Shown here in pieces: positions 1-22,654 of a DNA stretch of 22,654 nucleotides. The notes beneath the pieces are model-generated. The model searched no databases and was not told where the DNA came from. It was given only the letters and a program-made list of their open reading frames with translations. The position numbers and the translations under genes were made by a program. Each line of letters starts with the position of its first letter. The first letter of the stretch is position 1. Source of the DNA: a virus; the IMG/VR virus record IMGVR_UViG_3300044858_000807, positions 1 through 22,654 of that record, one strand, 5' to 3'.

Positions 1-84
1 CGAGGTGGCACCCTCGTCGTCAACAGCGCAATACGAAAATCCAAATACCAACAAGCCACTGAAATAGGAGACGCACTGTTATGA
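1..84 (+). CDS. C-terminal end of an unidentified upstream gene (partial)
   Basis: Frame 1 is open from the first base to a TGA at 82-84, giving 27 residues that begin RGGTLVVNSAIRK and end ATEIGDALL. The TGA overlaps the ATG of the next gene in an ATGA arrangement, which is typical of adjacent genes in a phage operon, so I read this as the end of a real gene whose start lies before the window. No domain can be recognised in so short a piece. A chance open frame of this length is quite possible; the main support is the ATGA junction and the gene-dense context. Confidence 0.4.
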   Translation, partial: RGGTLVVNSAIRKSKYQQATEIGDALL

Positions 85-293
85 GCGCGAACGAAACCCA
101 GGTGGGGGGTGACCACTACAAGATGGCATACGAAACGTGGGATGTGATCCACGCATGGGGGCTGGGATATTTTGACGGCAACGCTGTAAAGTACCTGTCC
201 CGCTGGCGCAAGAAGGGCGGCATGCAAGATCTACACAAAGCCCGCCACTACATCGACAAGCTCATCGAGCTGGAGGAACAAAAAGGTGGCTGA
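81..293 (+). CDS. DUF3310 small phage protein (SaV-like / T7 gp1.7 family)
   Basis: This 70-residue protein carries the DUF3310 signature: GGDHYK near residues 9-14, then an aromatic/hydrophobic stretch with HAWGLGYFDGNAVKYL (about 24-39), a basic RWRKKGG segment and a terminal DLHKARHYIDKLIEL helix. The family is common in phages and includes proteins related to T7 gp1.7, reported to act on nucleotides; whether this one does is not visible from sequence. The length is normal. The ATG at 81 is preceded by AGGAG at 66-70. It overlaps the stop of the upstream frame by 4 bp and the next gene's GTG by 8 bp, so it sits in a tightly coupled early/replication operon, in keeping with a nucleotide-metabolism role. 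Family assignment is firm; the biochemical role is inferred. Confidence 0.85.
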   Translation: MSANETQVGGDHYKMAYETWDVIHAWGLGYFDGNAVKYLSRWRKKGGMQDLHKARHYIDKLIELEEQKGG

Positions 294-2313
294 CCTTCCG
301 GGGATATCCTGTTACTGCAGTACCTACGGGAGGCCGACTGCCCTGATCGAGAACGCCATCTGGTGCTTTCTTCAGCAGGACTACGCTGGGCCGAAAGAGC
401 TGGTGATCCTGAATGACTTTGAGCAGCAGGAGCTGATATTCGACCACCCCGAAGTACGCATAGTGAACCACGCACAGCGCATCAAGCCGCTGGGTAAGAA
501 GTTCAACTACAACGTGTCACTGTGCAAGTACCCACTGCTGGCGGTGTGGGAAGACGACGACATCTTCTTGAAGCACCGGCTGAGTTACAGCTACGCCCAT
601 ATGCGGGACGGTGTGTTCCATTCAAACGATGCGTTCATCGAGCACGCCCCGTGCGAGTTGGGTGTCATGCGTAATCTTTTCCACAGCCAACATCTGTTCA
701 CCAAGGAGCTGTTCACCCGCGTGGGTGGGTATGCAGAGGCTGACCGGGGGTCCATCGATGTGACCCTGATGGACGCACTGCGTAAGGAGGTCGGGGAGTA
801 CTCGCAAGATGTGCCCATCGATGACCTGTTCTATGTGTATGTCTGGAGCGGGGCCAACTCCTTCCACGGCAGCGGTATGGGCGCAGACAACGAGGCAGTG
901 TCTGACAGCGCCGCCGAGTACGTTGTCCGACAGGTGAAAGAAGGTCGGGTGCAGGCGGGCAAGGTATACCTGCAGCCGAAGCCCAGGTACGACGTGTATG
1001 AGTACCTCCCCACGAGCAAGGCGCTGTTCCGCCCAGGTAACGTGCGGGTGGCGTATGGGTTGCCGGATGGGCGGAGCGAGGACGTAACTGCCCGGGTTGC
1101 CCGACTGTGCACAGTCTCATCAGGGGTGTGGTCCGTGCCCAGCGACGACGTGTCTCGGGCTGCGATACTGGGCGACCCTGCGCCGAACTACGTAAAACAA
1201 GTACGTATACAAGTAGTACCCGCCCCGGGGGAGACCGCATCGCTGCCGACGGTAGTGCCGTCCGGGGAGACAGTGAACTTCACGTTCACGCAAGGACAGC
1301 TATCGTTCGCGTACCCCACTGTAGGTACGCACCCAAAGATATTCATAAACATCGCCTCGTACCGGGATGACCACGAGCTGTGGGCCACGGTGAAGGACGC
1401 GGTGCGTAAAGCCGAGCACCCTGAGCGGCTGCGGTTTGCAGTGGTGGATCAGACCGCCGCGCCTGTCAATGAAGCCACGTTGGCGCAGGTTGCGCCCGCA
1501 CAGATCGAGTACCTATATGTAGACTACAGGTTCAGCCGAGGGCCATGCTGGGCGCGGGCACTGGGGTACACGCTGTTGTACGAAGAAGATTACGTGCTGC
1601 AGGTTGACTCGCACTCACGGTTCGACAACAACTGGGACACGTGGTTTATCACCACGGTAAAACGATTGCAGGGTAAATCCCCCAAGCCGTATGTAGGCAT
1701 GATGCCTTATGGGTTTACGTACGAGGGTGGGGTGGAGAAGCTGGACCGCAGCGGTGGGGTTACGCTGAACCTGTTGCCGAACGAGGGGCCGATAACTGCC
1801 CTGGCGAACGGGTACACAGGGATGATCTGCGACCACTCCGAGGACATCGAAGGAAGCCACGTCTCCGCAGGGTGCGTGTTCGCGCCAGCGGATTTGTTCA
1901 GGCAGGTGCTGGTTGACCCGGGGTTGTACTTCAACGGTGAGGAGCACAACTTCACGGTGCGTGCGTTCACGCATGGGTGGGACTTGTTCTTTGTCGCTGG
2001 GCAACCGGTGTTTCACCTATTCAACAACTCGCAGCAGTCGGTACGCTCCCCACACTGGAACGAGGAAGATGACCGGCAACGCAAGATCCGCTGGTGGCAA
2101 TACGACCAACGCTCAAACGAGCGGCAGAAGAGACTGCTGGTTGACCCTGCAAGTCTGGGTGCCTACGGACTAGGCAGTGCACGTTCCCTGGCAGATTACG
2201 CGACCAAGTTTGGCGTGGACTATCCGAACATGGTGGTGCACGCGGGGTTTGGACACAAGAAACAAAACGAACCGGAGAAAGAGCAGCATGGACCTGATAA
2301 CAATCGACTTTGA
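286..2313 (+). CDS. Two-domain glycosyltransferase (GT2-like plus GlcNAc-type)
   Basis: The 675-residue protein joins two GT-A-like transferase units. The first (about 6-210) starts ISCYCSTYGRP and has an EDDD acidic motif at 89-92, the usual metal/nucleotide-sugar site of GT2 enzymes. A linker of roughly 140 residues follows. The second (about 352-620) starts FINIASYRDD and has RGPCWARAL, then QVDSHSRF with D441 and H443, later FNGEEHNFTVRAFTHGWDLFF and FHLFNN. These are marks of the Glycosyltransferase (GlcNAc) family, whose eukaryotic members add GlcNAc to hydroxyproline in Skp1. The start is GTG at 286 with GGAGG at 272-276, overlapping the preceding gene by 8 bp; the end overlaps the polymerase start by 26 bp. 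Possible targets are virion proteins, modified DNA or host sugars; sequence does not decide. It lacks a signal peptide, so it likely acts in the cytoplasm. Confidence 0.85.
   Translation: MADLPGISCYCSTYGRPTALIENAIWCFLQQDYAGPKELVILNDFEQQELIFDHPEVRIVNHAQRIKPLGKKFNYNVSLCKYPLLAVWEDDDIFLKHRLSYSYAHMRDGVFHSNDAFIEHAPCELGVMRNLFHSQHLFTKELFTRVGGYAEADRGSIDVTLMDALRKEVGEYSQDVPIDDLFYVYVWSGANSFHGSGMGADNEAVSDSAAEYVVRQVKEGRVQAGKVYLQPKPRYDVYEYLPTSKALFRPGNVRVAYGLPDGRSEDVTARVARLCTVSSGVWSVPSDDVSRAAILGDPAPNYVKQVRIQVVPAPGETASLPTVVPSGETVNFTFTQGQLSFAYPTVGTHPKIFINIASYRDDHELWATVKDAVRKAEHPERLRFAVVDQTAAPVNEATLAQVAPAQIEYLYVDYRFSRGPCWARALGYTLLYEEDYVLQVDSHSRFDNNWDTWFITTVKRLQGKSPKPYVGMMPYGFTYEGGVEKLDRSGGVTLNLLPNEGPITALANGYTGMICDHSEDIEGSHVSAGCVFAPADLFRQVLVDPGLYFNGEEHNFTVRAFTHGWDLFFVAGQPVFHLFNNSQQSVRSPHWNEEDDRQRKIRWWQYDQRSNERQKRLLVDPASLGAYGLGSARSLADYATKFGVDYPNMVVHAGFGHKKQNEPEKEQHGPDNNRL
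2274..2290 (+). promoter_or_regulatory. Ribosome binding site that fixes the polymerase start
   Basis: GGAG at 2274-2277 lies 10 bases before ATG 2288. The same frame is open upstream to an ATG at 2177, but that extension lies inside the glycosyltransferase gene and encodes a Trp/Arg-rich stretch unlike any polymerase. The proofreading motif IDFE begins only six residues after ATG 2288, so 2288 is the true start. Confidence 0.75.
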
Positions 2314-4111
2314 AACGTACTACGACCGAGAGTTCAGCCTAACTAAACTCACAACCGAAGAGTACGTACGTGATGAACGGTTTGAGGTTATTGGCGTCGG
2401 GATAAAAGTCAATAATGGTGTAGTGGAGTGGGCAAGTGGGACTGAATCTCAACTCAAAGACTGGCTACTCCAGTTTGACTGGAAAAACTCTATGGCGTTG
2501 GCTCATAACGCTATGTTTGATGGGGCCATTCTGGCTTGGCGGTTTGGTATTGTGCCTGCTCTATGGCTTGACACTCTGTGTATGGGGCGTGCTCTGCATG
2601 GGGTGGAGGTCAGCAACTCGTTGGCGTCCCTGGCTGCGCGGGAGAAGGTAGGTTACAAGGGTGTGGAGGTGCTGAACGTAGTCGGTATGCGGCGGGAGGA
2701 CTTCTCGCAGGAGCGACTTGCCCGCTACGGGGACTACTGCATCACCGACGTGGAGCTTACGTATCTGATATTCCAGAAGTTCATACCGCAGTTCCCCAAG
2801 AAAGAACTCAAGCTGATCGACACCACCTTGCGGATGTTCATCGAGCCGACCCTGGAGCTGGACAAGAACCTACTCGCAGAGCACCTACAAATAATTCAGG
2901 AGCAGAAGTCCAAGCTGCTGACCGACAGCGGTGTGACCTCCGAAGACTTGATGAGTAACCCCAAGTTCGCCGAGGTGCTGACGAATCTGGGCGTGACGCC
3001 ACCGATGAAGACGAGCCCGACCACGGGTAAAGAAACCTACGCGTTCGCCAAGAACGACGAGGAGTTCATCGCGTTGATTCATCACCCCGACTGGCGCGTT
3101 CAGGGTCTGGTCGCGGCGAGGCTTGGGTTGAAATCCACGCTAGAAGAAACACGTACGCAACGGTTCATGGAGATCGCCGAGCGCGGCGCGTTGCCGGTGC
3201 CGATCAAGTACTACGCTGCGCACACGGGTCGATTCGGCGGGGACGACAAGATCAACCTGCAGAACCTGCCGAGCCGAGGCGCTAACGCTAACAAGCTCAA
3301 GCAAGCTATCCTCGCTCCGCAAGGGTACAGCATCATCGACTCTGACTCATCACAGATTGAAGCACGGGTGCTGGCATGGCTGGCTGGGCAGGAAGACTTG
3401 GTGCAGGCATTCGCAGAGCAGAAAGATGTCTATAAGAAGATGGCATCAGCTATCTACGACAAACCTGAAGACCAGATCACCAAGTCCGAGCGGTTCGTGG
3501 GGAAGACCACCATTCTCGGCGCGGGCTACGGTATGGGCGCGGTGAAGTTCCAAGCGCAGCTAAAGACGTTTGGTGTATCCGTTGAGTTGGATGAGGCACG
3601 ACGCATCATTGACATCTACCGGAAGTCGAACTTTGCGATCACCGCTTTGTGGAGGCAAGCTCAACTTGTTTTGGTGGCAATGTCCCGAGACGAACCCGCT
3701 CCACTGGGCCGAGCCGGTGTGCTGTCGGTGGTGCCGAAAGACAGGGCAATCCTGTTGCCGAGCAAGCTGATGCTGCGGTACGATGACCTGAAGGTACACG
3801 AGGGTGAGAAGGGGTTTGAGTTCACCTACAAGACCCGCAAAGGGCGCACGCGCATCTATGGTGGGAAGGTGATCGAGAACGTCTGCCAAGCCATCGCCCG
3901 GTGCATCATCGGAGAGCAGATGATGCGTATATCTATGAAGTACAAAGTTGTGCTGACCGTGCATGACGCCATCGCTTGCATATGCAAGGACGAGGAAGTC
4001 AAAGAAGCCCAAGCATACGTAGAAGAATGTATGCGGTGGGTCCCCAAATGGGCGGCTGGACTGCCGCTTAACTGTGAGAGCGGAGTTGGAAAAAGTTATG
4101 GTGACTGCTGA
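2288..4111 (+). CDS. polA: Family A DNA polymerase with 3'-5' exonuclease (Leu762 type)
   Basis: The 607-residue protein has a DnaQ-like proofreading domain followed by a Pol I-type palm/fingers domain and no 5'-3' exonuclease. Exo I is D7-F-E9, Exo II is HNAMFD (73-78) and Exo III is Y150-x3-D154. The polymerase part shows HTGRFGG at 312-318 and NLQNLP at 323-328. Motif A is DSSQIEAR with D353 and E358, motif B is R402-x3-K406-x3-L410-x3-Y414-G, and motif C is VHDA with H559 and D560. All catalytic acids are present, so it should be active as the phage replicase. The residue aligned with E. coli Phe762 is Leu410. At 607 residues it is somewhat shorter than T7 gp5. It overlaps the glycosyltransferase by 26 bp and the next small gene by 14 bp, implying translational coupling. 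Confidence 0.95.
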   Translation: MDLITIDFETYYDREFSLTKLTTEEYVRDERFEVIGVGIKVNNGVVEWASGTESQLKDWLLQFDWKNSMALAHNAMFDGAILAWRFGIVPALWLDTLCMGRALHGVEVSNSLASLAAREKVGYKGVEVLNVVGMRREDFSQERLARYGDYCITDVELTYLIFQKFIPQFPKKELKLIDTTLRMFIEPTLELDKNLLAEHLQIIQEQKSKLLTDSGVTSEDLMSNPKFAEVLTNLGVTPPMKTSPTTGKETYAFAKNDEEFIALIHHPDWRVQGLVAARLGLKSTLEETRTQRFMEIAERGALPVPIKYYAAHTGRFGGDDKINLQNLPSRGANANKLKQAILAPQGYSIIDSDSSQIEARVLAWLAGQEDLVQAFAEQKDVYKKMASAIYDKPEDQITKSERFVGKTTILGAGYGMGAVKFQAQLKTFGVSVELDEARRIIDIYRKSNFAITALWRQAQLVLVAMSRDEPAPLGRAGVLSVVPKDRAILLPSKLMLRYDDLKVHEGEKGFEFTYKTRKGRTRIYGGKVIENVCQAIARCIIGEQMMRISMKYKVVLTVHDAIACICKDEEVKEAQAYVEECMRWVPKWAAGLPLNCESGVGKSYGDC

Positions 4112-12099: not shown

Positions 12100-12127
12100 A
12101 CCCCGGCCCCGCGCCGGGGTCTTTTTT
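12100..12127 (+). terminator. Intrinsic terminator of the plus-strand operon
   Basis: ACCCCGGC (12100-12107) and GCCGGGGT (12113-12120) form a GC-rich 8 bp stem with a five-base loop, followed by C and six Ts (12122-12127). On the minus strand the hairpin is not followed by a T run, so it terminates rightward transcription only. Its T run overlaps the TAA of the convergent 2097-residue gene. Confidence 0.9.
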
Positions 12128-15100
12128 AGTCTTGCTGTTCCGCAGCCGTCTGCAGTAGCTCGTCGCGCAGTGCCTTGCTCAGGACGATGCCGTGGTACAT
12201 GGTCTGGGTTGTACGCTCATGCTGGGCCATCGACCGCTTGATAGTCTCTTCCAAATTACCCAAGCCAGGGTGCTTGATGTAAAGATCTTGCAGCTTCTCG
12301 CGGGCTTCCAGCAGTCCGTCAATGTCCCCCATCCGCCCTGCGGTATACATCTCCCGTAGGTACTTGGTGCGGTTGGTGGTAACAGCTTTGTCGATTCCCT
12401 TGAGCATGGAGTTGATCTCTAGCTGCTGGGTGTACTCGGCGGGTGAGAATCCGAAGAACTGAGCGGCTACGTTCCAAGGTCCAATGTCTCCGATGATGGG
12501 GTCTCCCCGCAGAGTGGTGGCACCTTCGGTGGCGTAACGCACAGCCTTCATCGGGTTGGACGCGAAGACCGGGACCATCGTCTCCATACCGCGTATGTAC
12601 TCCCCGTCGTTCACCATCTGTAAACCACGCTGCAGGCGACTAGCGATACCGTAGGCTGGACCCCCGAAAGTTTGTGCAGCCCACTCACCCAAGGTTTCAG
12701 AGCCGGAAGACACCGGGCTGGTGCGGAACAGCAGGTTGCTCAACCCGACACGCTCGGCAATACTGAGACCAGTTACTTCGTTTATGAGCCCCTTGTACAC
12801 AGACTCGCCCGTGTACCCACGCACCACCGCGCCGAAGTCCTCGTCGTCATCTTCCTTGAACATGTTGTAGATCATGGCGACCACACCGAACATCGGCATG
12901 CCTTGGAGCCCTGCAAACAGCCCGGTCGTAGCCATGATCCCCGTAAGTTGCTTGAACGCGGCGCGGCGAACAGCGGGGGTCTCCCCTCGTAGCATCTCCT
13001 TGGCGGTCTTGAACAACAAGTAGTTCATCAGCACGCCGTACTTCTTGAACATGAACAAGACCTTACCGATTGCGTTTTGTGCAATCGGCGGAGCGGTAGC
13101 TGCGGATGAGCCACCGTTGGTCATTTCAGCCAAGTAGATCGCCTCGTGGGCGGCACGTGTTTCTTTCTCCGCTTGCGATAGCGCACGCTCCTCGGCGGTA
13201 GCCTTGTTACTGTTCAACCGCTGCAACTCAAGGTCGTATGCAGCCATCAGCGAAACCTCACGGTTCAACCGCTCGGCATGATGGAATGCAAAACCGCTCA
13301 CCGCGTTGACCCGAGACATAACAGTCTTACGGTCGTCCACTTCCAACGCGTCGTACATCATGGAGCGATTGAACTGCCCCATCTTATTTGCTTCACGTGC
13401 CAGTGCAGCGTAGCGCTTCACTTCCTTCGGTACGTCAGGGCTGTCGAAGTCGTAGTTGTCCAAAGAAGGCATGGCACGGCGCTTGTCTTTCTTACCGCCA
13501 GCCCCCAGGATTTCTACCTCGCGCCCGAACCCACTAGCCATGAACGTCTTGTACGCCCGGGTGATCGCCTTACCGGCATCCCCATAACCATACTTGCCGC
13601 CCAGCATCGGCATGACAATCAGCGGCACCTGCGTCAAGTTCACCATCGCTGACGACACGTTAAAGCCGAGCAGGTAGTTGAAGCCGACGGTGTTGATGAG
13701 CTGAGCAGTCCGACTGACAGTCGGGGCCACGGCGAACGAGACGCGCCGCTCCATCTCGGAGAGGTATTCCTTAGCCAGTGCGTTGTCCTCGGCACCACCC
13801 TTACCCATCTTGATCGCGTACTCGCGCATGTCCTGCTGCACGTCGTACATACGGGCGGCGTACTTCATGTTCGACAACTGCCGAGACATAGAGAACGTCT
13901 TTTCGCGTAGGGCGCGAATCGAATCCTTTTTGAAACCCTCAGTTTCCTTGCGGCGTTGGAAGGACTGCGCAACCGCCGTCTCTGGCAGCGTGGTGAGGTA
14001 CATGCGCAAGACCGCTTCCATAGCGGTATCGAAACGCGCCTGCTGTTCTTCCGTCGCGCCATTGGGGCGGTTCTTTTCTATGATCTCCAGCACGCCCTTC
14101 ACGAAAGACGCAGGGGGCGCGTTCTTGTACGACAACTCCCGAATGTTGGAGAACTTCTGGATGAGGGTAGCACCCGCTGCCTCTACTGCCTTTATCGCAC
14201 GCTCACGCTCACGAGGGGACTCAAACGCTTCTATGTAATCAGTTGTCTGACCTCGGGCGTCTTTGGCAACATAGTACAACCAGTAGTCTCCGTTACGGGT
14301 CAGCGGAAAGTACGGATCGATTTCACCCTTCTGCGCCAAGACAGCATGCAACTCATCCTTTATCTTCTTGCGTGTATCTGTGTTGTCTACGGATGAGTCC
14401 ACCCGCGAATCAAGGGCGCTAAGAAGTTCCCTGTACAACTCTTGGTACGCATCACGCATGTTGATGTACAGTGCCCGCCCACCGGGCAGTGGGTCCAGAA
14501 GTTTGTTCAGCCGGTCCCAGGTCTCCAGTGCGTTCACTAGGTCAATCGCAGGGGCTTTTGCAAACTTGTCTTCGTAGAACTTCCTCGGCCTTGTGGGGTC
14601 GATCTTTGAGGTGGTGCTGTCGTACACCACCGTATCGAACCGCTCGGTAGCTGTGGGGCCTACTCGACGTGCCCACTCTTCAGCCTTGCGGACTATGCCT
14701 TCGATCTTCTGGTTGCGGGCGTTCTCGTCGCCTGCCCGCTCACGCACCAACTCGTTTATGCGGGGGGCTTGAGGCAGGTACTTCTTGGCAGTGTCTACGA
14801 ACACTTCCAACGGGAGTAACGAGAACCCCATACGCCGTGCGGTACCCCCTGCGGAGGCGAGGAACGCACTTGCAGCATCCGCTGTCTGCTCCCCTGCGAC
14901 ACGCCCAGTAGCGTCGAACATCGCGTTGATCGCACGAGAGACGATGGGTGCCTTGGGGTTCACGGTCGCCGCGTACAGCAGTTCCGCTTCCCGTGTATCC
15001 GGTGCAGCAGACAGGATGGACTTGATCGCCCGGTCGGCTACGTCATACGCAGTCTCAATACCGACGGAGGGCTTACCCATGAAGCTGCGGAACATGTTGC

Positions 15101-18100
15101 GGACGATGTTGACAAACCGCTCCCATGCCGTGATCTCCGCGCCCTTGGGGTTGATGGAGTTCAGCTTCGCCTTGAACTCCTCGTTTGCCCAGGTCTCAGC
15201 AACGAACTCGTCCAGACTCGTCGCACCGTACGCCGTATCCAAACTTCCCTTCACGTCGTTGAACAACGTGGTGAGCTGCTTGGTGTAGGGGTTCATCGGA
15301 TTGGAGAGAACATGCGAAGTAAACGCATGTCCAAGCTCATGGAACAGCACGTGATGGTTCATGCCGAACACGGAGTCCAGCGAGATTGAATTGGTCTTTG
15401 GGTCGTAGATACCGGCTACCCGCTTACCCGTGGCGTCAGTCAACTGGTTCACTGCCTGCACAGTGGTGGTCGTGAGGATGCCCAAATACAGCTTGGCGAG
15501 ATCCGCACTTATCCCGTCGGACTCGGCAGCAAGGAGCCTCAATGCTTGCTTGAGATCACCGTTATACAGCGCATGGCGCACAACGGGGTGCAATGGCGTG
15601 GCGAAGTCGCCCGGTGACTCCAACTTCTTCTGCGTCCAGCCAAGATCTCTCCACACCTCGGGCGGTGCTTGACGCTTGGCTTTGGCGTACGCTGCGATCT
15701 CCCGGGTCTGGGTAACTGCAGTAACTGCGTCTTCGGCAATCGCCTCAGAGTATTCACGGACTTGGGCTTGCTCGGCCTTGTACCGCTTCATACCCAATTT
15801 GGTGGCGGCGCGGCTACGTTGGTGTTCGGCGACGAACTTGGTGTACAGCGCCTTGGCGTCAGGGGACAGCTTTTCCTGTACCCATTGCTGCGCTTGTTTG
15901 GCAGCCCTGGTGCCGGTCCCCTGGAACCTTTCTACTTCAATCGATCCTTCACCTTCAGCACGCCGATAATTTGAAGTAGGGTTTACAACGTCGAACGCAA
16001 TGTCGTACAGGACATCGATCAGATTGGATGACTTGGAGAAATACGTTCTGGCGGCGGAAGCGGCTTCGCTGAGCTTACGCGTGGTAGCGACAACCCCAAG
16101 AATGGTCTTGCGATCCCGAGGTGGCAGCTTCTCACCTGCAGTGGGTTGATAGCCCTTGCGATCCAGTTCAGCCCAAGTCTTACGCGCCACCTCCTGCGCA
16201 GCACGCTCATCCGGCGTCAGGTCAGCATCTTCCTTGGCAACCTTGGGTTCTTTCTTTTCAGTCTGCGGCGCGGACGTGGGCGGCGGTGGGGGCGCGGGAG
16301 TAGCTGCTGCAGCAGCTTCATCGGCCTTGCGCTGTGCTTCCTCTGCACGCTCCAACATTTGTTGGGGTGTAAATTTAGGTGCCGGTGCCGGTGCAACAGG
16401 CGCAGCAACAGGCGCAGCAACAGGCGCAGCGGTAGGAGCCGAAAGCACCGATGGGTCGAAGTCAAACCCGGTAAGTTCTTTCCACTGCTTGAGCTTCTGT
16501 TCCAGCTCTGCTTCAATGGCTTCGTACTCCACCCGTGCTGGAGACGCCTGCTTACCTTCGCGGGGCCGGAACGGTTCCCGACCGTCCGAGGTCATCAACT
16601 CACCCTTGCGCGTACCGATCCTGCGCAGATCTTCGATGAGCGATTCTTTGGTAGGTGGCGCGGCAGGAGCCGTAGGCTCAACGGGTGGCGGTGGTGGCGG
16701 AGGCGGAGGCGGAGGTGGAGGCGGCGCAGGTGGGGTAACTTCTACTGCAGGGGGTGCAACTCCCGCTCCCATAACAGGACTTGCAGGAGGTTCTGCACCG
16801 CGTACCACTGGAGGTTGTTGAGGTGTGACAACTCCTGCGGGGGGTGCTGCTCCTGGGGGTTGCACAGGTACTGAAACGCCCTCTCCAATACTGGGAGGGG
16901 GAGGTTGTCCAACATTCGGTTGTTCCTCTACGGGGCCGGGGGCCCCTTTACGTTTGGCAAGTTCGGCTTGAACTGCCTGTATGAGATCTTGCTTCTGCTG
17001 ATCTTGGGGCTTAGCCAGTTGGTGCTGCAGGGTAGTTTCCAACAATTGCACAGGCCATGCGTCAAGTGATGGAATACCGAGAGGAGTGGGGGCCTCTGCA
17101 GGTGGAGCTGGGGGCGCAGCGGGTACGGGTGGTGTAGGCGCGACAGGTGGAGCGACAGGTGGAACGACAGGTGGAACGACAGGTGGAACGACAGGTGGAA
17201 CGACAGGCGGCGCGACAGGCGGCGCGACAGGTGGAGCTGGGGGCGCAGGGGGGAGAACGGGTGGGGGTGGCTCAGCGGGAGGTGGAGCCGGGGGTTGCTC
17301 TGCTGCGGTACGCTCGTCGAGGATACGTTGTGCCTCAGACTTCTGACGCTGGGCTTCTGCAAACGCACCGGGCGCACCAAACGTAGTACCGCCAATCGCA
17401 CCTTTCAGGCTTGCGTTGAGGATACGGTCGATGTTCTTCTGGCTAAACGCTTCTCCTGTGGCTCCGGCAGTCTGCTCGGCCAAGATACCAAGAAGTTCCT
17501 GTGCACCTTCGGTAGCACCTTCACCAAGTCCAGTCTTCAGAAGTTCTTTTGCTACGCCTACCTTGAGCGTCTGGGGAACAATCGTGGACTGCTGCACCAA
17601 CTCGTTAGCCACCCGGGCACGTGCGGCGGGGGAGAACTGACTCAACAATCGGGCAGGGATGATGGCGTCCAGCGCAGCTTGCGCGGCACCAAACACCACG
17701 GCTATACCGGGGGTGATGTTCCCTGTTTCTTCGTAGATGTTCTGGAACGTGTCTGGCGCGTTCAGTCCAAACGATGCGGTGCCGAGCCCTACGTTGGTCC
17801 CGGTTCTGGCTCCACGTGCAGCGACATCAGCACCGTATCTGTCAGTGGCGCGTGCGGCGAGACGCTCGGCATAGATCTTTGCCGCGTCATCAGTCATCCC
17901 TCTGGCCGCAGCGGTCTGCGCGGCCTTCTCCGCCGCCATTTTCTCCAGCCCACTAAGCGCAGCACGCCGCCCCACCACCCCACTAGCACCAGCGCCAGTG
18001 AGCATAGCGAGCATGTCAGCGCTGAGTTCTCCGACCGTTTCGGCTATGTATCCAGGGGCGTCTCCCACCCCCCGAATGTCACGGAAAGACTTGAAAGCGG

Positions 18101-18419
18101 TGGGGTACTTGAGTTCGGCTTCCCGGCGCTTGGCTGCAGCCTCTTCAAACTGTTGCTTGACGTACTCGTCGTTTTTACCGACAAGCGACGCCGCCAAGGC
18201 AGGGGCTAGATCAGTGATTGCACTCCCTAACCCAGAAGCTGCACGGCCAAAGCCGCCCTTGATGAGCTGACCTAACCCGAGATCCCGGTAGTCAGGACGA
18301 TACCCATACTTTTGCTCTGCGAGCGAAGCAAGCCGTTGTGCCTGTGCCTGGATCTCTGCATCCGGCATTGAGTCAGGAAACGATACCGGCCCATAGTTGG
18401 GTATCTGGACTACCTTCAC
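12126..18419 (-). CDS. Giant polyvalent virion protein with metallopeptidase motif and LPD38-like end
   Basis: The 2097-residue protein has an Ala/Gly-rich N-terminal region (about 1-360) with amphipathic helices. Next come long Pro-rich linkers (about 365-450 and 500-780), including a run of 14 prolines at 566-579. A zinc metallopeptidase motif HELGH (1027-1031) follows, with E1071 or E1075 in SLDEFVAETW as likely third ligand. Helical regions continue to about 1600. The C-terminal part (about 1700-2000) contains KVLFMFKKYGVLMNYLLF, a hydrophobic segment near 1815-1848 and GEYIRGMETM, which resemble the LPD38 domain of phage polyvalent proteins. I infer an internal virion protein ejected with the DNA, possibly processing itself or a host factor. 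GTG 18419 overlaps the upstream stop by 4 bp, with a G-rich RBS. The gene ends next to the convergent terminator and shows no T-tailed hairpin of its own. Confidence 0.85.
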   Translation of the reverse strand: MKVVQIPNYGPVSFPDSMPDAEIQAQAQRLASLAEQKYGYRPDYRDLGLGQLIKGGFGRAASGLGSAITDLAPALAASLVGKNDEYVKQQFEEAAAKRREAELKYPTAFKSFRDIRGVGDAPGYIAETVGELSADMLAMLTGAGASGVVGRRAALSGLEKMAAEKAAQTAAARGMTDDAAKIYAERLAARATDRYGADVAARGARTGTNVGLGTASFGLNAPDTFQNIYEETGNITPGIAVVFGAAQAALDAIIPARLLSQFSPAARARVANELVQQSTIVPQTLKVGVAKELLKTGLGEGATEGAQELLGILAEQTAGATGEAFSQKNIDRILNASLKGAIGGTTFGAPGAFAEAQRQKSEAQRILDERTAAEQPPAPPPAEPPPPVLPPAPPAPPVAPPVAPPVVPPVVPPVVPPVVPPVAPPVAPTPPVPAAPPAPPAEAPTPLGIPSLDAWPVQLLETTLQHQLAKPQDQQKQDLIQAVQAELAKRKGAPGPVEEQPNVGQPPPPSIGEGVSVPVQPPGAAPPAGVVTPQQPPVVRGAEPPASPVMGAGVAPPAVEVTPPAPPPPPPPPPPPPPPVEPTAPAAPPTKESLIEDLRRIGTRKGELMTSDGREPFRPREGKQASPARVEYEAIEAELEQKLKQWKELTGFDFDPSVLSAPTAAPVAAPVAAPVAPAPAPKFTPQQMLERAEEAQRKADEAAAAATPAPPPPPTSAPQTEKKEPKVAKEDADLTPDERAAQEVARKTWAELDRKGYQPTAGEKLPPRDRKTILGVVATTRKLSEAASAARTYFSKSSNLIDVLYDIAFDVVNPTSNYRRAEGEGSIEVERFQGTGTRAAKQAQQWVQEKLSPDAKALYTKFVAEHQRSRAATKLGMKRYKAEQAQVREYSEAIAEDAVTAVTQTREIAAYAKAKRQAPPEVWRDLGWTQKKLESPGDFATPLHPVVRHALYNGDLKQALRLLAAESDGISADLAKLYLGILTTTTVQAVNQLTDATGKRVAGIYDPKTNSISLDSVFGMNHHVLFHELGHAFTSHVLSNPMNPYTKQLTTLFNDVKGSLDTAYGATSLDEFVAETWANEEFKAKLNSINPKGAEITAWERFVNIVRNMFRSFMGKPSVGIETAYDVADRAIKSILSAAPDTREAELLYAATVNPKAPIVSRAINAMFDATGRVAGEQTADAASAFLASAGGTARRMGFSLLPLEVFVDTAKKYLPQAPRINELVRERAGDENARNQKIEGIVRKAEEWARRVGPTATERFDTVVYDSTTSKIDPTRPRKFYEDKFAKAPAIDLVNALETWDRLNKLLDPLPGGRALYINMRDAYQELYRELLSALDSRVDSSVDNTDTRKKIKDELHAVLAQKGEIDPYFPLTRNGDYWLYYVAKDARGQTTDYIEAFESPRERERAIKAVEAAGATLIQKFSNIRELSYKNAPPASFVKGVLEIIEKNRPNGATEEQQARFDTAMEAVLRMYLTTLPETAVAQSFQRRKETEGFKKDSIRALREKTFSMSRQLSNMKYAARMYDVQQDMREYAIKMGKGGAEDNALAKEYLSEMERRVSFAVAPTVSRTAQLINTVGFNYLLGFNVSSAMVNLTQVPLIVMPMLGGKYGYGDAGKAITRAYKTFMASGFGREVEILGAGGKKDKRRAMPSLDNYDFDSPDVPKEVKRYAALAREANKMGQFNRSMMYDALEVDDRKTVMSRVNAVSGFAFHHAERLNREVSLMAAYDLELQRLNSNKATAEERALSQAEKETRAAHEAIYLAEMTNGGSSAATAPPIAQNAIGKVLFMFKKYGVLMNYLLFKTAKEMLRGETPAVRRAAFKQLTGIMATTGLFAGLQGMPMFGVVAMIYNMFKEDDDEDFGAVVRGYTGESVYKGLINEVTGLSIAERVGLSNLLFRTSPVSSGSETLGEWAAQTFGGPAYGIASRLQRGLQMVNDGEYIRGMETMVPVFASNPMKAVRYATEGATTLRGDPIIGDIGPWNVAAQFFGFSPAEYTQQLEINSMLKGIDKAVTTNRTKYLREMYTAGRMGDIDGLLEAREKLQDLYIKHPGLGNLEETIKRSMAQHERTTQTMYHGIVLSKALRDELLQTAAEQQD
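16393..16428 (-). repeat. Three 12 bp tandem repeats encoding an Ala/Pro/Val linker
   Basis: The plus strand has three identical copies of GCAACAGGCGCA, giving a repeated A-P-V-A unit in the giant protein's linker before its peptidase half. It lies in frame, so copy-number change would not break the gene. Confidence 0.85.
16683..16724 (-). repeat. Run of 14 proline codons
   Basis: Codons 566-579 of the giant protein are all proline (GGN triplets on the plus strand), with mixed synonymous codons. Long proline runs stall bacterial ribosomes unless EF-P assists. Confidence 0.9.
17141..17236 (-). repeat. Eight 12 bp tandem repeats encoding V-P-P-V/A units
   Basis: Eight units of CGACAGGTGGAA and close variants (AG or CG endings) follow one another without gaps and encode PPV/PPA repeats at about residues 395-427 of the giant protein. 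The middle four units are identical, a sign of recent expansion by slippage or recombination. Confidence 0.9.
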
Positions 18420-20158: not shown

Positions 20159-21835
20159 TTAACCATTAGGGAACAACTTCTTGATCTGATCCGCAAGCCC
20201 CATCAGCCCGCCTAACGTACCAGACAACTGCCCAAGCCCGGTAGTAGCTTCAGAGGTGGTGCTGGTGCTGGCGGGTAGCCCTTGGATAAGGCTTTGTTGG
20301 AACTGCAACTGCTTGTACGGGTGGAGACGTTCCTCCTCAAACTGAGCCCTATCGGCGGCAATGCCTTCGCCCTCGATATCACGCTGGGTCTTACCAGCAC
20401 CTGCCATCATGTCAGCCAGAGTCTTGGCTTGGCCTTGCTCGGTGTTGAACTGTCCCATCGCCCGGTCATAGGCGTTGGCATACCCAGTGCCGATGGCTTT
20501 GTTCTGCTCTTGCATCAGATTTCGTTCAAGTTCAGCAGACTCAATTGCTTGCCTGCCGCCACCAAACGCACTTGCCCCACCGCCGATGCCGCTAAATTTA
20601 GCGCCCAGGTTCTTCCGAGAGATCTCGGACTGCCTGCGCATTTCCTCCAACTGAGGCGTCAGCACAGCGCTCAAGTACGGGTTCATGTACTGAGAGGCAA
20701 TCCCCCCCGGCCCAGTAGCTGGCCCCCCTGCGGTTGGTAGTTGATACGCCCCTGTGGAGGAGAACGTCTGCCCCAGTTGACCAGGGAAGGACAATCCCTG
20801 CAATCCCGAAAACACTTTTGACTGCAGCCCGGATTCACCCGCCGTGAGCGGCCCGGTATAGGCTTGATATGGGGTGTTGGCAAGTGCCTGACCTTTACCC
20901 ATGTAGTCCGTCACATAGGGACCGATCCAGCTAGACAGATTGGATTCCGTACTGACATCTCCAGCCACACCACCGGCGTCGAACGCAACCGCACCCCCAC
21001 CAGCGTAACCAGCGATACCACCCGGGGTGAACCTTGCAGGGTTGATCCGCCGCCCTTGCTTTTTGGTACCAGTTCTTGCCCTACGCACTCGGTCCATCAT
21101 TTGATACAGCACCTTGGCCCCGGCGTCAGAGTTGCCGTTACCGAGATGGGAGACCACGTCCGCAGGAATCACGAACTCCCCATGACTTAGCTTGGCAGGT
21201 TGCCGGTTATCGATGGAGCTAGGAATCCTGTCGGCCATACCGTCGGTTTGGCCACGCAGATAACGAGGGGGCATTGCTTTGCCACCACGGGCCATTTCAG
21301 CAATACCGCCCTGGGCCATGCCGCCTCCGTCAGTCGCAATGTTGACGGAATCACTCCCGTCGCCCCCTGCAACAGTATCAGCACCACCTCCACCACCTCC
21401 ACCACCTCCACCACCTGTGGTCGCAGTGGTTACAGGCGCGTAAGTTACATCAGAGAAGTACCGCCGTCCAGCACTTCCAGGGCGACGTGCAGGGGCCCCC
21501 GCTGCGGGTGTAGGTTGCGCAAGTTGGGTTCGCGTTGCGGTGAGTTGGGGGATGCCACCCCTATACCCAGGCGGCTTGCTGCTCTTGAACATCCCGGTCA
21601 ACCCGCCGATTCCAGCCAGTGCAGCGATCTGCCCCGGTGCACCAAACGGCGATGTGCCCGTAAACAATTTACGTACGTCGTTCCACGTAAAGCTGCTGGG
21701 GTCCGCATTGGATACGACATCGTTCCAGTACGTGGTCGAACTCTGCAAGTTAGGATCAGTGTAGTTCTTGACCCATTCCCCCGTTACATCGTCCCAACCA
21801 TAAGTGGGGTTTGCGGGATCTACATTGCTAGACAT
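20159..21835 (-). CDS. Phage structural-type protein with poly-Gly linker
   Basis: The 558-residue protein begins with a Trp/Asp-rich segment (YGWDDVTGEWVKNY), then a Pro/Arg linker and a run of 11 glycines near 142-152. A conserved block at about 198-252 contains SIDNRQPAKLSHGEFVIPAD and VVSHLGNGNSDAGAKVLY, a pattern I know from many phage virion-type proteins. GGIAGYAGGGAVAFDAGG follows near 268-290. The C-terminal half has a helical MNPYLSAVLTPQLEEM start, FGGGRQAIESAELERNLMQ (about 421-440) and an ending HPYKQLQFQQSLIQGLP, again typical of phage proteins coded near internal virion or tail genes. The exact role is unknown; a structural or ejection protein is inferred. The ATG at 21835 has AGGAG upstream, and its TAA lies 9 bases before the next gene. 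Confidence 0.78.
   Translation of the reverse strand: MSSNVDPANPTYGWDDVTGEWVKNYTDPNLQSSTTYWNDVVSNADPSSFTWNDVRKLFTGTSPFGAPGQIAALAGIGGLTGMFKSSKPPGYRGGIPQLTATRTQLAQPTPAAGAPARRPGSAGRRYFSDVTYAPVTTATTGGGGGGGGGGGADTVAGGDGSDSVNIATDGGGMAQGGIAEMARGGKAMPPRYLRGQTDGMADRIPSSIDNRQPAKLSHGEFVIPADVVSHLGNGNSDAGAKVLYQMMDRVRRARTGTKKQGRRINPARFTPGGIAGYAGGGAVAFDAGGVAGDVSTESNLSSWIGPYVTDYMGKGQALANTPYQAYTGPLTAGESGLQSKVFSGLQGLSFPGQLGQTFSSTGAYQLPTAGGPATGPGGIASQYMNPYLSAVLTPQLEEMRRQSEISRKNLGAKFSGIGGGASAFGGGRQAIESAELERNLMQEQNKAIGTGYANAYDRAMGQFNTEQGQAKTLADMMAGAGKTQRDIEGEGIAADRAQFEEERLHPYKQLQFQQSLIQGLPASTSTTSEATTGLGQLSGTLGGLMGLADQIKKLFPNG
21383..21416 (-). repeat. 9 bp tandem repeats encoding poly-glycine
   Basis: ACCACCTCC is repeated 3.8 times on the plus strand. 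Each unit encodes three glycines in the 558-residue protein, giving a flexible linker. The period is a multiple of three, so slippage keeps the frame. Confidence 0.85.
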
Positions 21836-21838
21836 AAC

Positions 21839-22654
21839 TTACTCCTTGCTTTGGGGCTGTGACCGGCGCTGCAGCAGCCGCATCAGATTCTTGAGCGCTT
21901 GCTCTTCAGGGGTTTCTTGTTTGGCAGTCTGCACGGGTGCCGAGTCGCGGCGTGCCCATTCTCGCTGCTTTTCTTCCTGTTGGCGCTTCCACGCCTTGTA
22001 AAACGGTGTTTCTAGGTCCGGGGTTGGCACATTTGCCAACATATCCTGCATCTTCTCCCGCGCACCTCTCTGAGGAAGCGACGCCACCCCAGCCAGTAGT
22101 GCCGCTGCATCTGCGGGTGAACCCGGCTTGATCGTAGTCGTCGGAGGCAGCGTCGTTGGAGGCGGAGTCGTCGGAGGCAGCGTCGTTGGAGGCGGAGTCG
22201 TCGGAGGCGGAGTCGTCGGAGGCGGAGTCGTCGGAGGCAGCGTCGTTGGAGGCGGAGTCGTCGGAGGCGGAGTCGTCGGAGGCGGAGTCGTCGGAGGCAG
22301 CGTCGTTGGAGGCAGCGTCGTTGGAGGCAGCGTCGTTGGAGGCAAAGAGAATGTAATTGGGGGCTTAGTTGTAGTTGGAGGCAGCGTCGTTGGAGGTAAA
22401 GAGAATGTAATTGGGGGCTTAGTTGTAGTTGGAGGCAGCGTCGTCGGAGGCGGAGTCGTCGGAGGCAGCGTCGTTGGAGGCAGCGTCGTTGGAGGCGGAG
22501 TCGTCGGAGGCGGGATCTTTAAGGTGAAGGTATTAGTAGGTGTGAGCGATGGCGTGAGCGATGGCGTGAGCGATGGCGTGAGCGACGGTGTGAGCGACGG
22601 TGTGAGCGACGGTGTGAGCGACGGTGTGAGCGACGGTGTGAGCGACGGTGTGAG
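21839..22654 (-). CDS. PPTT/LTPS-repeat protein, start beyond the window (partial)
   Basis: The minus-strand frame is open from the window edge to TAA at 21839-21841, giving 271 residues of a longer protein. From the N-terminal side it contains LTPS repeats, a short NTFTLKIP bridge, several PPTT(L/P) pentapeptides broken by two TKPPITFS inserts, and then 14 PPTT(L/P) pentapeptides in a row. A charged helical end (about 100 residues; DMLANVPTPDLETPFYKAW, EEQALKNLMRLLQRR) closes it. The Thr/Pro region must be extended and unstructured, like mucin stalks. No enzymatic motif is visible. The next gene starts 4 bases after its stop, with its RBS overlapping this stop. A virion surface or linker protein is the likeliest role; a TTG at 22345 is in frame but has no reason to be the start. 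Confidence 0.7.
   Translation of the reverse strand, partial: LTPSLTPSLTPSLTPSLTPSLTPSLTPSLTPSLTPSLTPTNTFTLKIPPPTTPPPTTLPPTTLPPTTPPPTTLPPTTTKPPITFSLPPTTLPPTTTKPPITFSLPPTTLPPTTLPPTTLPPTTPPPTTPPPTTPPPTTLPPTTPPPTTPPPTTPPPTTLPPTTPPPTTLPPTTTIKPGSPADAAALLAGVASLPQRGAREKMQDMLANVPTPDLETPFYKAWKRQQEEKQREWARRDSAPVQTAKQETPEEQALKNLMRLLQRRSQPQSKE
22136..22345 (-). repeat. Fourteen 15 bp tandem repeats (PPTT-L/P coding)
   Basis: Units of TCGTCGGAGGCGGAG and TCGTTGGAGGCAGCG alternate over 210 bp without interruption. They fall into two types that give Pro or Leu at the fifth residue. The two sequence types are shuffled, as expected if units were copied by recombination. Confidence 0.92.
22331..22438 (-). repeat. 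54 bp tandem duplication within the PPTT region
   Basis: The stretch 22331-22384 is repeated at 22385-22438 with one difference noted (C at 22343, T at 22397). Each copy encodes 18 residues including KPPITFS and PPTT units. Confidence 0.88.
22542..22654 (-). repeat. 12 bp tandem repeats running into the window edge (LTPS coding)
   Basis: Three copies of GTGAGCGATGGC are followed by six copies of GTGAGCGACGGT and a partial seventh that reaches the last base. On the minus strand each unit encodes L-T-P-S. The true repeat number is not known because the array continues past the window. Confidence 0.92.

Follow-up and report, generated by a model that had tools for sequence, protein, structure and literature searches.

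The fusion gene that lies between a DUF3310 gene and polA in the phage DNA analysed here encodes, on the balance of probability, a two-headed protein O-glycosyltransferase (GT) acting on a Pro/Thr-repeat phage protein. The evidence points to a repeat protein of the virus that is sugar-coated, in the manner of animal and protist mucins, rather than to modified DNA. The window, i.e. the whole stretch that was analysed, comprises positions 1-22,654 (22,654 nt) of the record IMGVR_UViG_3300044858_000807 from an uncultured phage; its relevant features are collected in Table 1. Few phage proteins have been demonstrated to be glycosylated, and little is known of the sites that accept the sugars.

Table 1. 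Features of the window that bear on the fusion gene and its proposed acceptor.
Feature	Position	Strand	Remarks
DUF3310 gene	81..293	+	PF11753 E 1e-9; upstream border of the exchange slot; 98-100% nucleotide identity with L006/L007 in the larger part of the gene
Fusion glycosyltransferase gene	286..2313	+	675 aa, GTG start; recurs in L002 and L003
N-domain, GT2-like, probably GT-A, residues 1-244	286..1017	+	EDDD; free-standing homologues; PF00535 match of relative L110; structure model; SpsA/PglI profile matches
Linker, residues 245-349	1018..1332	+	fast-evolving; dN/dS 0.2-0.37
C-domain, PF11397 GlcNAc (GT60-like), residues 350-660	1333..2265	+	PF11397 E 7e-42; motifs invariant
C-domain motifs DSH, GEE, conserved His577	1606..1614; 1936..1944; 2014..2016	+	
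Family A DNA polymerase gene (polA)	2288..4111	+	PF00476 E 1e-38; downstream border of the exchange slot; 98-100% identity with L006/L007
558-aa late gene	20159..21835	-	immediately follows the repeat ORF; marker for comparing GT+ and GT- relatives
Pro/Thr-repeat ORF, (LTPS)n followed by (PPTTL/PPTTP)n	21839..22654	-	at least 271 aa, cut by the contig end; putative acceptor

The sequence-only reading had described an EDDD-bearing GT2-like domain and a GlcNAc-type domain with VDSH and FNGEEH in a single chain, the gene of which overlaps its neighbours on both sides. All of this was confirmed. The reading frame is open and real, table 11 being sufficient for its translation, and the gene shares 8 nt with the DUF3310 gene at its 5' end and 26 nt with polA (ATG at 2288) at its 3' end. 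EDDD is located at residues 89-92 (nt 550-561), VDSH at residues 440-443 (nt 1603-1614) and FNGEEH at residues 549-554 (nt 1930-1947). The full fusion was found in two further contigs from two other metagenomes (95-97% identity), i.e. in three contigs in all. A set of 50,697 phage records contained no copy of it; the C-half alone was matched in three of these records and the N-half in none. The fusion is thus not one that is widespread and already characterised. Chimeric assembly was rejected as the source both of the fusion and of the allele swap described below, since every one of the architectures was seen in at least two metagenomes. When the three copies of the fusion gene were compared with each other, dN/dS amounted to 0.07-0.13 in both halves, which indicates that both are maintained by purifying selection. 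The linker between them evolves faster, and it yielded no Pfam match, no phage match and no identified relative. The polymerases nearest to that of the window are those of Rhizobium phage RHph_TM3_14A (36%) and Pseudomonas KPP25 (33%), and the label 'HMO-2011-type phage' was therefore dropped.

The C-half is scored by the Pfam profile PF11397 ('GlcNAc') at 144.6 bits (E 7e-42; cut-off 21). In an alignment of 67 sequences D441-S442-H443, E552/E553 and H577 are invariant, and the domain shows the hallmarks of the PF11397/GT60-like enzymes: DxH replacing DxD, an acidic GEE/xED motif, and a C-terminal His. DxH is the motif of GT27 and GT60, where it stands in place of DxD; GT60 has been placed beside GT27, the mucin-type ppGalNAc-transferases, and both families have been linked to O-glycosylation of Ser/Thr in polypeptides (PMC7185993). 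The Trypanosoma cruzi enzyme puts alpha-GlcNAc onto Thr of mucins (PMC3769586). In a profile search of the PDB, GalNAc-T7 aligned to the DxH and GEE regions with a sub-threshold E of 0.78, and in the structure model the C-half, with its shallow alignment, has a pLDDT below 50. The window C-domain belongs to the same Pfam family as the polypeptide alpha-GlcNAc transferases Skp1 Gnt1 and Gnt2 of Dictyostelium and TcOGNT-2 of T. cruzi, with which it shares DxH, and as for these enzymes we propose a Thr or Hyp acceptor in a Pro/Thr-rich or mucin-like protein (PMC3769586, PMC7185993). Unlike them, the window enzyme is phage-borne and fused to a second GT (or, in sister alleles, to a methyltransferase), and its sugar and acceptor are putative.

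The N-part of the window protein is a genuine domain despite its weak match to PF00535 (Glycos_transf_2), which at 17.3 bits (E 0.005) stays under the cut-off of 23.3. Its relative L110 passes the same cut-off with 38.3 bits, and about 40 viral contigs encode the N-half as a free-standing protein of about 245 aa, so that the border of the domain can be set near residue 244. EDDD is invariant among all N-homologues aligned. In the AlphaFold model, strands and helices alternate along residues 1-240 and the pLDDT there is mostly 87-98, and a profile search of solved structures gave weak matches to SpsA and PglI (E about 0.01). The earlier view that two real GT domains are joined in one chain is supported. 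It might be argued that the C-half is the sole transferase and that the N-half serves to bind the acceptor or is otherwise non-catalytic, because the module can be replaced by a methyltransferase and because the replacement in L004/L094 is itself a methyltransferase that has shrunk and lost its SAM motif. We consider this unlikely in view of the invariant EDDD, the low dN/dS and the existence of free-standing homologues. In another phage contig (L086:3671-5296) the same N-domain (65% identity) forms a fusion with another kind of GT2 domain, and a portal gene directly precedes the gene for it.

The GT gene is a swappable cassette. Over the greater part of the DUF3310 and polymerase genes, two relatives, L006 and L007, match the window at 98-100% identity, whereas the GT gene between these genes differs: the C-domain of their allele is only 53-54% identical to that of the window, and its N-terminus is a SAM-methyltransferase. 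A third form, present in L004, L005 and L094, carries the shrunken methyltransferase without a SAM motif, which is homologous to the L006 methyltransferase (BLASTP E 2e-15). When a tree was built from the C-domains, the phage forms of the window's group all fell into one clade (SH-aLRT 100), within which the methyltransferase form is sister to the remaining ones. Given this single rooting within the clade, a methyltransferase was probably displaced by the GT2 half. As the two modules are exchanged for one another in sister alleles, it is preferable to regard the N-half as a replaceable module that serves to 'extend or cap'. Diversifying pressure on phage glycans is suggested by the exchange of alleles.

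In more distant relatives the same slot is empty or holds an HNH-like, VRR-NUC-like or deaminase-like gene, as judged by reading the sequences. Relatives with differing cargo or nothing between DUF3310 and polA are L011, L012, L036, L038, L044 and L079. Because the cargo is unrelated, the position beside polA marks a cargo site and not a role in replication. The place of the fusion among replication genes, which had been taken as a functional clue, therefore carries little weight. This bears directly on the idea that the GT glycosylates a modified base and thereby counteracts restriction. Glycosylation of DNA is familiar from T4-type phages, the gene sits between DUF3310 and polA, and a carbamoyltransferase gene adjoins the GT gene of the jumbo phage XacN1. 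Apart from the unrelated cargo in the slot, what speaks against such an activity is that a Pfam scan of ten ORFs from the 44-kb contig G001, all located beyond its window-like part, detected no gene for base modification, these genomes being incomplete. Tet_JBP was likewise matched in 0 of 10 records, which is a weak argument given incomplete genomes and a search without an informative positive control. Furthermore, the DxH clade of GT60 and GT27 acts on polypeptides (PMC7185993). We regard modification of DNA, which the sequence-only reading had held worth testing, as very improbable and as not supported by the G001 ORFs scanned or by the nature of the slot.

Modification of a protein finds indirect support in Pro/Thr-rich repeats. 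In the window and in those relatives that carry it, a repeat ORF directly precedes the 558-aa late gene, and from these neighbours it would be a virion protein. Each contig breaks within the repeats, which leaves the N-terminus of the ORF outside every one of them, and a search with the repeat DNA led to no additional contig; longer versions, of 504 aa in L203 and 454 aa in L205, contain (APTL)n. Pro/Thr arrays are present in all three GT+ contigs that extend into the late operon (the window, G001 and G002), the GT+ relatives of the window constituting one clade, and in none of 14 GT- relatives (586 kb), ten of which hold the 558-aa gene. With a looser criterion of 40-aa segments the GT- set gave four tracts, of which 42 residues fall in an ORF of at least 150 aa. 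At N-domain loci outside the window's group no Pro/Thr arrays were seen within 5 kb. The association with Pro/Thr repeats therefore belongs to the C-domain.

The same association recurs in jumbo phages. XacN1 has 29 Pro/Thr tracts (1662 residues) and RAS14 has 24 (1299 residues), and both carry a distant PF11397 gene (26-28% identity). In RaK2, GAP32, 121Q and CcrColossus the GT profile found no gene, and there are no Pro/Thr tracts in their 1.33 Mb; these controls are AT-richer, except for the GC-rich CcrColossus. Proteomic analysis of XacN1 revealed at least two glycoproteins, for which the authors suggest GTs including ORF334; in the portion of that report available to us the glycoproteins are tied neither to ORF334 nor to any Pro/Thr-tract protein (PMC5852040). 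ORF334 shares with the window enzyme the PF11397 domain (26% identity) and a phage origin, with many Pro/Thr tracts in the genome and glycoproteins reported from proteomic analysis (PMC5852040), but it lacks the GT2 fusion, adjoins a carbamoyltransferase gene and belongs to an unrelated phage. TPTP-rich hypothetical proteins, some of which adjoin tail sheath genes, are encoded at 124048-133832, 235607-237571 and 249342-261711 of XacN1 (AP018399.1) and are candidates for the reported glycoproteins of that phage.

Modification of virion protein, the second proposal of the earlier reading, is thus supported indirectly, by the co-occurrence with Pro/Thr repeats and by the XacN1 glycoproteins. The modified protein need not be the repeat ORF, since virion glycosylation is known in phages: the virion-protein glycans of Che8 and other mycobacteriophages are attributed to phage GTs (cited in PMC11256854). 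The targets there are capsid proteins, whereas Pro/Thr repeats are proposed for the window. Glycosylation of capsid, tail tube or other virion proteins in the manner of the mycobacteriophages would also agree with the XacN1 glycoproteins (PMC5852040). It would leave the co-occurrence with Pro/Thr tracts unexplained, and we deem it unlikely.

In bacteria, the C-domain is a stand-alone gene at nearly all of 65 Burkholderiales/SAR86 loci, and it is single-copy in the 20 of 20 genomes that were checked. At 30 of the 65 loci there is a gene for a TPS exoprotein, which in 29 of the 30 cases is immediately divergent from the C-domain gene, and no such gene was present in control DNA (400 kb) taken from these genomes. 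Seven of the TPS exoproteins bear Pro/Thr tracts, e.g. (PAPT)n. The arrangement, of which L145:1725-6948 and 28 similar loci are examples, some with (PAPT)n tails, points to a possible unrecognised O-glycosylation of adhesins in Comamonadaceae. It is reminiscent of HMW1-type adhesin glycosylation, in which a TPS exoprotein is paired with a dedicated cytoplasmic GT. HMW1C belongs to GT41, i.e. to a different GT family, and the linkage of the C-domain homologues to TPS genes is a genomic one. A Burkholderiales MAG contig (L132:1132-5178) encodes a GlcNAc-GT/2OG-Fe(II) oxygenase fusion, a GlcNAc-GT/methyltransferase fusion and a PPPSTTTVV repeat ORF, and looks like a bacterial hydroxylate-and-glycosylate cluster. 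A 2OG-Fe(II) oxygenase domain was seen only in this bacterial locus; 2OG-FeII_Oxy_3 is absent from the window and 19 related virus records, several of which are fragments. A Skp1-type prolyl hydroxylase partner was thus not found in these phage records, which makes Thr a simpler acceptor in the phages than hydroxyproline.

The bacterial loci also bring the host surface into play. The enzyme could act early in infection on LPS, capsule or a Pro/Thr-tailed TPS adhesin of the host, so that superinfection would be blocked or receptors altered. Many phage GTs alter O-antigen. In addition to the TPS adhesins that adjoin the bacterial homologues, the early-type position in the operon fits such a role, and the swapping of alleles among near-identical phages would suit an arms race over receptors. 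This explanation does not account for the phages' own Pro/Thr arrays, which accompany the GT and are absent from GT- relatives. Moreover, PF11397/GT60 acceptors are polypeptides (PMC7185993), and no flippase-like or polyprenol-GT partner gene was seen within the window. We thus rate a host-surface target as a minor possibility.

For the favoured protein O-glycosyltransferase we envisage the following course. The C-half with its DxH metal motif would transfer the first sugar, probably a HexNAc such as GlcNAc, onto Thr, possibly Pro/Hyp, of Pro/Thr-rich repeats, for which the APTL/PPTT-repeat ORF beside the late genes is the best candidate. The GT2-like N-half would then add a second sugar. The two-step formation of a disaccharide that had been read from the fusion is thus plausible from sequence. 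In sister alleles, the methyltransferase that stands where the N-half is otherwise found would methylate the sugar and so cap it, and a whole-cassette swap between nearly identical phages could change the glycan at one stroke. We infer the link to the acceptor from co-occurrence in two lineages of phages and a single group of bacteria; in the window itself the two genes are 20 kb apart. More tentatively, and with somewhat less than even confidence, we propose a self-contained mucin-type O-glycosylation system of phages, in which a GT60-like initiator for Pro/Thr-repeat virion proteins is fused to an exchangeable finishing module in the form of a second GT or a methyltransferase. If this is true, the glycan coat of the virion would be switched by cassette swaps among otherwise near-identical phages. 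The link between enzyme family and Pro/Thr repeats in two unrelated phage groups and beside Burkholderiales adhesins would provide a simple genomic rule for predicting mucin-like glycoproteins of phages, and it also offers a direct peptide assay.

Two side observations may be added. A 2097-aa protein encoded on the minus strand of the window (12126-18419), with LPD39 and a DarB-like antirestriction C-terminus, adjoins the operon of the repeat ORF. In GT-less relatives, acyl-carrier-protein-like and ketosynthase-like ORFs (L230 and L231; G013 35294-35572 and G014 266-1645) are located beside tail-type genes.
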